Origin: an uncultured Bacilli bacterium
Lineage (GTDB): Bacteria > Bacillota_I > Bacilli_A > RF39 > UBA660
Reading direction: 5' to 3'
NCBI GenBank assembly: GCA_947627995.1
Contig: CANQYE010000005.1
Span: forward strand, 1-54,311
Length of the DNA stretch: 54,311 bases
Each line of letters starts with the position of its first letter. Position 1 is the first letter of the stretch. The position numbers were made by a program, and so were the translations under genes. This document shows positions 9,832-13,846 of the stretch, in pieces. The notes beneath the pieces were generated by a model that was not told where the DNA came from, ran no database searches, and saw only the letters and a program-made list of their open reading frames with translations.

Positions 9832-9967
9832 TAAAAAAGGAACTGTCCCCCTGAGAAACAGTTCCAAAAAAAGAATAAAAAGGGGTTGGCTAGTGTGATA
9901 CTAGCACCAATTCGCCTAAAAGTGAATTGGTAGGATATATACTAATAGAAGAATGTTTATTTGTCAA
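9832..9967 (-). ncRNA. Candidate small RNA between nifJ and recG, minus strand
   Basis: Minus strand: TTGACA (9967-9962), 17-nt spacer, TAGTAT (9944-9939), two hairpins (CCAATTC/GAATTGG; GCTAGT/ACTAGC), unpaired CCAACCCCUUUUU, terminator GGAACTGT-N11-ACAGTTCC-TTTTTT. No ATG. Confidence 0.6.
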
Positions 9968-10020
9968 CACTTTTTTACAATTTTTTTAAATTTTTTTGTA
10001 TAATTAATGTGGAGGCAGTT

Positions 10021-12015
10021 ATGAATTTAGAAGATATTAAAGGAATTGGAACAAAAACTATAGAAACATTAAATAAAATGCATATTTTTAATATTCTAGA
10101 TTTAGTAACTTATTATCCTTATAAATATCAAATATTAAAATTAAGTAATATTAATGAAAATACAAATTCGTCAATAGTTGTGGAAGGTATTATAGAATCA
10201 ATACCCAAAGTAAATTATGTAAAAAGAAATCTTAATCGATTAACATTTTCTGCAATAATTAATAATTTAAGAGTAAACGTTGTTATTTTTAATCGTGCTT
10301 TTATGAAAAACAATTTAAAGGTAGCAGACCAAATAACACTTATAGGTAAATATAACAAAATAAAAAATCAATTTATCGCAAGTGATATAAGACTTTCTAA
10401 AATTAAAGGGGTGAAAATAGAAGGAATTTATCATCTTATTAATGGCATAAAAAGAAATAGTTTAAATAAGATTATAAATAGCGCTTTAACCACTAATTAT
10501 TATTTAATAGATTATATACCTAATTTTTTAGTGACAAATTATAATTTTTTAGCTAAAGATGAAGCTATTAAAATATTACATAACCCAATTACAATTAGTG
10601 ATTTAAAAAAAGCTAAGTTAAGAACTATTTATGAAGAATTATTTTTATTTATGTTTAAAATGAATTATTTAAGTTATAAAAGAAAATTAGAAAGTAAAGC
10701 TATAAAAAGGAATGTTAACAATAAAGATGTAGAAAAATTTATTAATAATCTTCCTTTTAAACTGACAATAGATCAAGAAAAAGCAGTAATGGATATATTT
10801 AATGATTTAAATAATGAAAAAAGAATGAATCGCTTGCTTCTTGGGGATGTTGGAAGTGGAAAAACAATAATATCTGTAATTGCAATTTATATTAATTTTT
10901 TAAGTGGTTATCAAAGCGCTTTAATGGCTCCTACTGAAATTTTAGCAACCCAACATTATAATTCCATTATGGAAATATTTGATAATTATGGAATAAAAGT
11001 AAGACTTTTAGTTGGAAGTATTAATAAAAAAGAAAAAGATAATATTATTTTGCAGTTAAAAAATGGAGAAATAGATTTAATAGTTGGAACTCATGCAATT
11101 ATTAGTGAAAATATAAAATTTAAAAATTTAGGATTGGTGATAACTGATGAACAACATCGTTTTGGTGTTAATCAGCGAAAAAATTTGCAAAATAAAGGGG
11201 TAAAAACTGATGTTTTATATTTAAGTGCAACTCCAATACCTAGAACATATGCTTTAACATTATATGGAGATATGGATATTTCGATAATTAAAACTAAACC
11301 AAAAGGAAGAAAGGAAATCATAACAAAAGTAAAAAAAGAAAAAGAAATTAAAGACATTTTATTACATGTGTTAGAAAGTGTAAAAAATCATCATCAAGTT
11401 TATGTAGTTGCCCCAATGATTGAAGAAGATGAAGAAAGCACTTTAAATAATGTTAATAATTTGGCTGAAAAATTTAAATTAGCTTTTCATAATAAAGTAA
11501 ACATTGGTGTTATTCATGGCAAAATAAAGCCACAAGAAAAAGATAACATTATGAATAAATTTCAAAATAATGAAATAAATATTTTAATTTCAACTACGGT
11601 TATTGAAGTAGGTATTGATGTAAAAAATGCTAATATGATGATTATATTTAATGCCGAAAGATTTGGACTTGCAACACTTCATCAACTAAGAGGACGTGTT
11701 GGCAGAGGAGAAGATCAATCATATTGTTATTTAATAAGCAACTATGATACTAAAAGATTAAAAGTAATGGAAGAATCAAATGATGGGTTTTATATTAGTG
11801 AAAAAGATTATGAAATAAGAGGAGAAGGAGATATTTTTGGTACAATCCAAAGTGGAGATATGTCTTTTAAAATGGCAAATTTAAAAAAAGATTTTAAAAT
11901 TCTTTTACAAGCTAAGAAAGATAGTGCAAAATTTATTGAAGAAAATATAAAAGATAATTTTGATAAATATCCCCAATTTAAAAATATAATATCTGAAATA
12001 ACTTTCATAAATTAA
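10021..12015 (+). CDS. recG: ATP-dependent DNA helicase RecG
   Basis: LLGDVGSGKT, TDEQHRFGV, LSATPIPRT, QLRGRVGRG. ATG 10021 has an SD (GGAGG); the called upstream start 9961 does not. Confidence 0.95.
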   Translation: MNLEDIKGIGTKTIETLNKMHIFNILDLVTYYPYKYQILKLSNINENTNSSIVVEGIIESIPKVNYVKRNLNRLTFSAIINNLRVNVVIFNRAFMKNNLKVADQITLIGKYNKIKNQFIASDIRLSKIKGVKIEGIYHLINGIKRNSLNKIINSALTTNYYLIDYIPNFLVTNYNFLAKDEAIKILHNPITISDLKKAKLRTIYEELFLFMFKMNYLSYKRKLESKAIKRNVNNKDVEKFINNLPFKLTIDQEKAVMDIFNDLNNEKRMNRLLLGDVGSGKTIISVIAIYINFLSGYQSALMAPTEILATQHYNSIMEIFDNYGIKVRLLVGSINKKEKDNIILQLKNGEIDLIVGTHAIISENIKFKNLGLVITDEQHRFGVNQRKNLQNKGVKTDVLYLSATPIPRTYALTLYGDMDISIIKTKPKGRKEIITKVKKEKEIKDILLHVLESVKNHHQVYVVAPMIEEDEESTLNNVNNLAEKFKLAFHNKVNIGVIHGKIKPQEKDNIMNKFQNNEINILISTTVIEVGIDVKNANMMIIFNAERFGLATLHQLRGRVGRGEDQSYCYLISNYDTKRLKVMEESNDGFYISEKDYEIRGEGDIFGTIQSGDMSFKMANLKKDFKILLQAKKDSAKFIEENIKDNFDKYPQFKNIISEITFIN

Positions 12016-12137
12016 AAATATGAGAAAGTGAGAAAATAGACTAAGGTAAATCCCAATAGTTTTATAAAAATTAAAAAAAAATTAATTATATTTTCCATTT
12101 GAAAACATATTATGTAGTACATAAAAAGGATGTATTT

Positions 12138-12166
12138 TTGACAAAATTAAAGAAATATGATAAAAT
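12138..12166 (+). promoter_or_regulatory. Sigma-A-type promoter for structured RNA
   Basis: TTGACA (12138-12143), 17 nt, TAAAAT (12161-12166). Confidence 0.75.
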
Positions 12167-12171
12167 TTATT

Positions 12172-12540
12172 TATTAATTGATTGTGGTGCATTATTCTAG
12201 TTGCGGAAAAATTATCGGAAGGTAGGGCTAAAAATCTACTGCTTGTTAATCAATTAACATGTCGTGCGAAATATAAAGATATTGTACTGATCAGACAATG
12301 ATATACTTTATATTTTTATAGCGAATAAGGGTAATTTAAAGCATTAGGGAAAACCTCTAGAGTGTTAAGTTATAAAGATTAAAATACGGACTAAGTGGCA
12401 ATCGAGTCATTAATTTGGCGACAGTTAATTATTTTCTATAAAGAGAAATCGCCCGAGGGTAACCAAAGGAGAGAAAATAGAGAAATTCAACTCGACCTAA
12501 AGCCGTAAAATTAATTTATAATTAACCACACAAATTAAAG
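12172..12540 (+). ncRNA. Candidate large structured RNA or leader, about 365 nt
   Basis: No ORF. Multiple helices: terminal GTGGT/ACCAC plus TTAATT/AATTAA, AAATATAAAG/CTTTATATTT, TACGG/CCGTA, GGCGA/TCGCC. Starts about 6 nt after a consensus promoter and ends at the SD of the next gene. Confidence 0.65.
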
Positions 12541-12549
12541 GAGAATTAT

Positions 12550-13068
12550 ATGAATAAAAAGAGATCAATAATAAAAATATTTATAATCTCTTTTTTTCTA
12601 GCAATAATTTTTGGCCTTGGGACAAATGCTTTTGCTAGCAAATTTAATGAGATTATTCTTATAATACTTACTTTTCTAATTATAATAGTAGGTATAATAT
12701 TTGATATGATTGGCACAAGTGCTTTAACAAGTAAAGAATCCACTTTTCATGCTATGTCTGCAAAAAAAATAAAAGGAGCATCTAAAACAGTCGATTTAAT
12801 TAAAAATTCAGCAAATGTATCAAGTATTTGTAATGACGTTGTTGGAGATGTGTGTGGTGTAATAAGTGGTTCGCTTGGAGTTTCTTTAAGTATTTTAATT
12901 TCCAATAGATATAATATATCTTTATCTTTAATTACTGTTTTAATTGCAGCAATAATTTCAGCATTAACTGTTGGCGGTAAAGCAATATTTAAACAAGTTG
13001 CTATTAAAAACAACGATAAAATTATATATAAAGTTGGGTTTATATTATCAGGATTTAAGAAAAAATAA
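12550..13068 (+). CDS. Small membrane protein resembling clostridial proteins annotated CorB/CNNM (DUF21-like)
   Basis: 172 aa, TM segments, motif IIFDMIGTSALTSKESTFHAMSAKKIKGA. Confidence 0.6.
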   Translation: MNKKRSIIKIFIISFFLAIIFGLGTNAFASKFNEIILIILTFLIIIVGIIFDMIGTSALTSKESTFHAMSAKKIKGASKTVDLIKNSANVSSICNDVVGDVCGVISGSLGVSLSILISNRYNISLSLITVLIAAIISALTVGGKAIFKQVAIKNNDKIIYKVGFILSGFKKK

Positions 13069-13117: not shown

Positions 13118-13846
13118 TTGTATCAAATAAAAAATTATTTTATTGATTCAAAAGGCATTAAATATAATATTAAAAATATTAATTTTTCTGAGAAAAGTAA
13201 TTTAATTGGAAGCTTCGGAAATTTAATTGCAGAAACGGATTATAAAAATAACCCTTTTTTTTCTTCGTCAAATGGGATGGGTGTATATATTTATAAATCA
13301 AGATATGATAAAAACAGAGCTTTTAGAATTTATAAAGATTTTGCAGATTATGAATATACATTTCATGATGATGCCAAATTGATTCTAGAATTACAAAGTA
13401 GACAAGAAAAAATAAATTTAACAACATTTCCCATGGGAGTAGTAACAATTAAAAATAAAATTATTGGTCAAGAAATCCCACTTTTTGAAAAATATAAAAC
13501 TCTCTTTGAATATTTTTCTAATAAAAAAAATGCTACGGATTTATTTTTAATTTATTTAAAAATAATAGAAATTTTAAGTGAACTTTATAAAGCAGAAATT
13601 TTTTATATTGATATACATTCAAAAAATTTTTTAATAAATCCTATTACAAAACATGTTAAATTAATTGATTTTGAAAGTTCTTCATTAGCTTTTGATAATA
13701 AAAAAGCTTATAAAAAAATGCTTGAAAATTTGAAAATAATGATAAAAGAACTTAATTCTTTTTATAATTATAATAATGAAATATTTGAAAAAGCTAGTGA
13801 TTTAGAACAAATGAAAGTAGTAATAAAAAAAGAATTGAAAATTTGA
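13118..13846 (+). CDS. Atypical kinase/phosphotransferase-fold protein
   Basis: TTG start. YIDIHSKNFLI (HxDxxxxN-like catalytic loop) and KLIDFESS (DFG-like). Confidence 0.55.
   Translation: MYQIKNYFIDSKGIKYNIKNINFSEKSNLIGSFGNLIAETDYKNNPFFSSSNGMGVYIYKSRYDKNRAFRIYKDFADYEYTFHDDAKLILELQSRQEKINLTTFPMGVVTIKNKIIGQEIPLFEKYKTLFEYFSNKKNATDLFLIYLKIIEILSELYKAEIFYIDIHSKNFLINPITKHVKLIDFESSSLAFDNKKAYKKMLENLKIMIKELNSFYNYNNEIFEKASDLEQMKVVIKKELKI

Follow-up and report, generated by a model that had tools for sequence, protein, structure and literature searches.

The locus described here lies in a 54,311 nt contig of an uncultured bacterium of the Bacilli, and we refer to this whole stretch of DNA as the window. 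It comprises a promoter, the gene of a noncoding RNA (about 360 nt) and that of a membrane protein. The RNA is a shortened OLE RNA, for which we use the name mini-OLE, and the protein gene is oapA. The features are given below; helix names follow published text descriptions and the position within the RNA.

12138–12166, + strand: ole promoter TTGACA, 17 nt, TAAAAT (from the sequence; also in front of OLE genes elsewhere in the family, the two other mini-OLEs among them)
12172–12530, + strand: mini-OLE RNA, about 360 nt (RF01071 match at 12168–12545, 138.9 bits)
12183–12188, + strand: 5′ strand of P1, UGUGGU, with partner ACCACA at 12525–12530 (90% of cells paired; name provisional)
12193–12200, + strand: 5′ strand of P2, UAUUCUAG, with partner CUAGAGUG at 12357–12364 (covariation; named after PMC12265935 and by position)
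12202–12216, + strand: 5′ strand of the putative P3/P3.1, 11 bp (permutation test)
12221–12240, + strand: P4 hairpin GGUAGG/UCUACU with the conserved A-rich loop GCUAAAAA (Rfam alignment, covariation)
12244–12259, + strand: P4a stump UGUUAA-UCAA-UUAACA with a four-base closing loop (covariation; presumptive name, from position)
12262–12324, + strand: shortened P9 (comparison of mini-OLEs, covariation)
12286–12294, + strand: P9 loop ACUGAUCAG with the palindrome GAUC at 12289–12292 (UGAUCA identical in 3/3 mini-OLEs)
12346–12356, + strand: conserved hairpin AGG-GAAAA-CCU, probably P10 (Rfam alignment, covariation)
12370–12521, + strand: 3′ domain 2, the P11–P15 region (Rfam alignment, conserved motifs, covariation)
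12537–12543, + strand: Shine-Dalgarno sequence AAAGGAG of oapA (from the sequence)
12550–13068, + strand: oapA, membrane protein of 172 aa (DxxxD motif, OapA alignment, CNNM-like fold)

OLE RNAs are large, membrane-linked bacterial RNAs and are typically about 600 nt long. The initial annotation had recognized a large structured RNA of about 365 nt which did not look like tmRNA, RNase P, SRP or 6S RNA, and had left the choice between a known large family, with raiA as its named example, and a new one. The Rfam search that it proposed (raiA, OLE, ROOL, GOLLD) settles the identity. With Rfam 15, positions 12168–12545 match OLE (RF01071) with 138.9 bits at a cut-off of 50 (E = 1.2e-36 for the whole window); the only other match above the gathering cut-off in the window is a tRNA at 50–121, and none of the 14 control genomes contains a match to RF01071. 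The alignment spans model positions 1–616, with about 200 inner positions missing, and the sequence blocks of OLE are present (GUGGUGCA.UAUUCUAGU, GCUAAAAAUC, GGAAA..CUAGA, GGACUAAGUGG.AAUC and GACCU..AAGCCG). Thus the RNA does belong to a known family; a new family is excluded, and what can be new is only a short form within a known class. In the genome, which is 94% complete with 969 kb on 27 contigs, this is the single OLE.

The covariance score, the conserved blocks, the covarying structure and the adjacent oapA are all as in OLE RNAs. What differs is the length of about 600 nt with the arms P5–P8, as the mini-OLE has about 360 nt and P5–P8 are absent. Published variants already lack P7 and P8, as is the case for variant 2 of the RF39 clade (Fernando & Breaker 2024, PMC11332333). 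We therefore regard this length as typical of OLE and not as defining.

The promoter noted in front of the noncoding stretch is present and of the sigma-70 type, with TTGACA at 12138–12143 and TAAAAT at 12161–12166 matching the consensus at 11 of 12 positions and a TG preceding the −10 element. Transcription probably starts at about 12172. Of the family's 65 OLE loci, 62 have a promoter-like element with at least 10 of 12 matches, in most cases 9–19 nt upstream of the conserved GG.GCA. Between 12172 and 12530 there is no open reading frame of at least 60 aa, in agreement with the noncoding stretch described before. The closing helix said to abut AAAGGAG is the one between UGUGGU and ACCACA, and the start codon ATG of oapA follows at 12550. 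The fold of the mini-OLE (−74 kcal/mol) shows a modest excess stability over shuffles (−63.7 ± 5.2 kcal/mol, z = −2.0). Such a weak signal is expected for an AT-rich RNA, and fold energy is thus weak evidence for the structure, which homology to RF01071 and the covariation among 20 related RNAs establish.

The covariation check had also been proposed at the outset. We built a gap-free alignment of the shared core of these 20 RNAs, anchored on conserved motifs, because plain MAFFT misplaced the 3′ strand of P4a. In total 96.0% of the cells are paired, where shuffles give 85.8% and slid partners no more than 48%, and two-sided changes occur in 28 of 61 pairs (shuffles 17.1) and in 125 cells (shuffles 36.6). 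The shared core is thus supported. The core alignment set the register for P4a and for the base of P9, where 4/4 pairs were required; as these registers were selected to pair, the pairing figures of both helices are slightly generous. For all other helices the source was the Rfam alignment or the window sequence.

In P2, one pair shows the exchange U-A/G-C/A-U. For the helix UAUUCUAG/CUAGAGUG the name P3 was also considered, but what has been published on P2 fits it better, and we take another helix as P3/P3.1. The latter joins the linker between P2 and P4 with the segment before P10, pairing UGC (12202–12204) with GCA (12341–12343) and AAAUUAUC (12209–12216) with GGUAAUUU (12330–12337). The helix is longer with its own partners than with swapped ones (equalled in none of 2000 permutations). 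For P3/P3.1 of OLE, which has been proposed to cross the membrane, 12 pairs have been quoted (PMC12265935), and the 11 pairs of the mini-OLE come close to this number. P4a has two-sided changes in 5 of its 6 pairs. In relatives it encloses P5 and P6, and in full-length OLE also P7 and P8. In the mini-OLE everything above P4a (P5, P5.1, P6, P6.1, P7, P8) is replaced by the four-base loop, which differs in the two other mini-OLEs. The shortened P9 consists of a base UCGU/GCGA (12262–12265/12321–12324), a 10-bp stem (12268–12277/12307–12316) and a tip AUUGU/ACAAU. The 3′ domain is made of the nested helices UUAUAAA/UUUAUAA, UACGG/CCGUA and UCGAGU/ACUCGA with two side hairpins and the conserved GGACUAAGUGG..AAUCGAGU.

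The DxxxD motif has been described as distinctive of OapA, and the MtCorB structure was published as OapA-like (PMC11332333). The protein encoded in the window carries this motif as D96VVGD100, both aspartates being invariant in the OapA alignment, as well as a basic cluster KKIKGA. Identity is 91% among the OapAs of mini-OLE genomes and 37–51% to OapAs beside longer OLEs. A match to the CNNM domain is found for 14 of 17 family OapAs; the protein of the window alone is below the cut-off (E = 0.78). In relatives, the genome-wide CNNM matches lie directly behind OLE in 6/6 cases, and a search of the window's genome and of 12 relatives gave no separate CNNM protein. An AlphaFold2 model (pLDDT 87) has CNNM MtCorB as its three best PDB matches (probability 1.00, E = 0.01–0.1, with a modest TM-score of 0.49–0.60); a poor model built without an alignment (pLDDT 54) was set aside. 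The protein thus has the DxxxD motif and, as modelled, a CNNM-like membrane domain. The RF01071 match, the membrane protein with DxxxD, the OapA alignment, the CNNM matches and the fold match to MtCorB identify the stretch as an ole–oapA locus. We are confident that an RF39-type gut Bacillus has its ole gene here, RF39 being presumed from the published link with variant 2; the size-reduced OLE RNA would form a membrane-bound ribonucleoprotein with the adjacent OapA.

How common is this form? OLE was found in 25 of 60 relatives, mostly of the same family, and in 189 of 294 family genomes. The family has OLEs of about 530–620 nt, of about 470–516 nt (variant 2, without P7/P8) and of about 380 nt as matched, the last being the mini-OLE with about 360 nt from the likely start of transcription. 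The distance from L4 to GGAAA is 112–116 nt in mini-OLEs, 213–250 in variant 2 and 279–348 in longer OLEs, without overlap among the measured loci. The Rfam scores are graded likewise: 134–139 bits for mini-OLEs, about 190–250 for relatives classed as variant 2 and about 310–437 for typical OLE. The mini-OLE occurs in 3 of 389 family genomes (that of the window, G035 and G195), which belong to two genera. A pattern scan of 85,462 species, limited to L4-to-GGAAA distances of 100–130, returned only the pair of genus g36, presumably of rabbit-gut origin; the scan may have masked the genome of the window itself. In the OapA tree, the three mini-OLE genomes form one clade (100/100) inside a group with variant 2 (100/100) and apart from the longer OLEs. 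We found no description of an OLE RNA shorter than variant 2, or of a form without P5 and P6, in the searchable papers. A survey of 2024 used a lower score limit of 235 bits with another model (PMC11332333); the mini-OLE would fall below this limit if that model scores like Rfam's. Judged by these papers, what is new is the form without P5 and P6; OLE as such, its association with oapA and reduced forms of it in gut Bacilli were already known.

Other short-looking matches (L053, L059, L060, L062, L065 and G311) are contig-end fragments or split matches. In G311 (C28:5907–6399; L064, L066, L067) the OLE match is broken up at the end of a contig into three parts, which may be due to a low-quality assembly or a decaying copy. 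We also considered whether a mini-OLE can be the second, paralogous OLE of one genome; the candidate L026 in G025 runs off the contig end. That genome (4% contamination) carries an OLE of full length and, in addition, a piece of another (loci L005 on C14 and L026 at C3:70010–70423). This piece has its own TTGACA promoter, lacks the 5′ part with P1–P4 and ends at the contig end; it could be a paralogue that was truncated, a contaminant or the result of misassembly.

In the window, within the stretch 9961–13068, ole–oapA lies 3′ of recG, and the murA of this genome is on another contig (C2). In G035, G195 and a variant-2 genome (loci L025, L063, L024) ole–oapA lies 3′ of murA and a GDSL-type gene. 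The locus thus seems to have moved as a unit, ole and oapA remaining neighbours through the rearrangement. Directly behind oapA the window has an open reading frame of 242 aa (13118–13846) with a weak match to Pkinase (E = 2e-5, below the cut-off), which is not conserved 3′ of oapA in the other mini-OLE genomes.

Since the RNA ends 6 nt upstream of the oapA Shine-Dalgarno sequence and no terminator was found on the + strand between the two, it could be mainly a cis-acting, riboswitch-like 5′ leader of oapA and not a free component of a ribonucleoprotein. However, the OLE RNA of H. halodurans is known from the literature as an abundant component of a ribonucleoprotein which binds OapA directly, and several relatives (e.g. 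L057, L058, L012, L003; judged by eye) have a terminator-like hairpin with a T-run 3′ of OLE. A leader role is in our view improbable.

Among the mini-OLE genomes oapA has a dN of 0.045–0.053 and a dS of 0.58–0.80, thus a dN/dS of about 0.06–0.08 and purifying selection, and the 3′ domain of the RNA differs at 2–3 of 185 positions (1.1–1.6%), compared with 40–53% in the 5′ leader. Constraint on both and the covarying helices show that the mini-OLE is maintained and not a relic. One could still take the large deletion, in a reduced genome of about 0.97 Mb, as a step in the decay of an OLE gene that has lost its function, and rare defective OLE genes have been mentioned, yet in organisms without OapA (PMC11332333). 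Decay is very unlikely: the 3′ domain is at 1–2% divergence where oapA has reached a dS of 0.6–0.8 under a low dN/dS, the promoter is kept, the remaining helices are kept with compensatory changes, and three genomes from two genera share the form. Still less credible is an artefact of assembly or binning in which the arms were lost by misassembly. All three genomes are probably metagenome assemblies (two are so stated), but the same junction is found on three separate contigs with differing short loops and 5–12% local divergence, and P4a is cleanly closed. That a new RNA class merely borrows OLE domains, as the low score of 139 bits against about 310–437 for typical OLE could be read, is hardly conceivable given the whole-model alignment, the oapA partner, the same promoter position and the phylogenetic position with the variant-2 OLEs.

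With the mini-OLE taken as a maintained OLE RNA, the retained and lost elements can be compared with the known contacts of OLE. By cryo-EM, OLE dimers are bridged by L4 (B1, A-A pairs), by L5/L6/L7 (B2) and by a kissing loop of L9.3 (B3), the tetranucleotide of which varies between GGCC, GAUC and AGCU (PMC12286853). The mini-OLE has the A-run of L4, lacks L5, L6 and L7, and has the GAUC loop of P9 in all three genomes; by our estimate, roughly 7% of 9-nt loops would contain one of these palindromes by chance. Judged from these loops, the mini-OLE would dimerize through B1 and B3, a reading which rests on one evolutionary lineage. The observations fit a rule by which B1 is retained in every variant together with one or both of the other bridges; as it rests on a single loss of B2, this rule is only a suggestion. 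Long P9 stems usually end in GGCC or AGCU loops, a general trend taken from an automatic loop table which mis-picked L4 in several loci (e.g. L063, L030, L035). In several longer OLEs of the family (e.g. L004, L007, L009, L013), P9 seems to be short and its loop not palindromic, with L5 and L6 retained. This pattern, the reverse of the mini-OLE and drawn from heuristic loop calls, suggests that B2 and B3 may replace each other.

OapC binds a k-turn at J4a/5 (PMC9723947), and this site is gone from the mini-OLE. Proteins of the L7Ae family (OapC/YbxF) were found in none of 13 family genomes, those with full-length OLE included, and the control genomes were positive. Thus OapC is absent across the sampled clade and not merely where OLE is short. 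The proposed bS21 site in P6 is lost as well; bS21 itself is present. Two OapA sites have been reported in or near P2 and P4a (PMC12265935), and both regions are retained.

We suggest that the locus works as follows. Its own promoter would produce an OLE RNA of about 360 nt, which together with the product of the adjacent oapA would form a membrane-bound OLE ribonucleoprotein. The parts that would tie the RNA to the membrane protein and lead it through the membrane (P2, P3/P3.1, P4, P4a) are kept. So is the entire 3′ domain, and of the three known dimer contacts two still have their loops (L4 for B1, the GAUC loop of P9 for B3). The minimal particle, RNA plus OapA dimerized via B1 and B3, could then carry out the task of OLE without OapC, the bS21 site or bridge B2. 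In the one species studied, this task is the adaptation to stress and to Mg2+: OLE RNA, joined with OapA in the membrane, helps H. halodurans to cope with cold and alcohol, with Mg2+ and with poor carbon sources (OLE literature). We give an even chance to the proposal that the mini-OLE is a naturally minimal working OLE of RNA and OapA alone, dimerized by the A-A contacts of L4 and the GAUC kissing loop of P9, for which the k-turn module, the bS21 pocket and B2 are dispensable.

If this is true, the essential OLE machine would consist of the P2-P3-P4-P4a neck at the membrane and the 3′ domain. Known for some 20 years, OLE RNA is still without an assigned biochemical function. The mini-OLE is a natural form in which about 40% of the RNA, two proposed partner sites and one of three dimer interfaces are gone. 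It thereby narrows the essential core, and its strong conservation despite the lost arms marks the dispensable parts of OLE. The mini-OLE also offers a construct of about 360 nt for structural and complementation work, and since the helix is kept and the arms above it are lost, it allows a direct test of P3/P3.1 as membrane-crossing helix.

Compared with known systems, the mini-OLE is closest in kind to variant 2. Both are without P7/P8, stand in front of oapA in what is probably the same type of clade, lack OapC and have the same conserved sequences in P1–P4 and in the 3′ domain. Unlike variant 2 (470–516 nt), which keeps P5 and P6, the mini-OLE of about 360 nt is also without P5/P5.1, P6/P6.1 and most of P9. 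With full-length OLE of H. halodurans and C. acetobutylicum it shares the promoter, P1/P2, P3/P3.1, P4 with its A-rich loop, P4a, a P9 with palindromic loop, the 3′ domain and the adjoining oapA. It is, however, about 240 nt shorter and has neither the k-turn module for OapC, nor the P6 region with the proposed bS21/RpsU site, nor the L5/L6/L7 bridge B2. OapA finally resembles the CNNM/CorB Mg2+ transporters (MtCorB 7M1T/7M1U; MpfA) in the modelled fold of its membrane domain, but has no CBS domains and carries the DxxxD motif.
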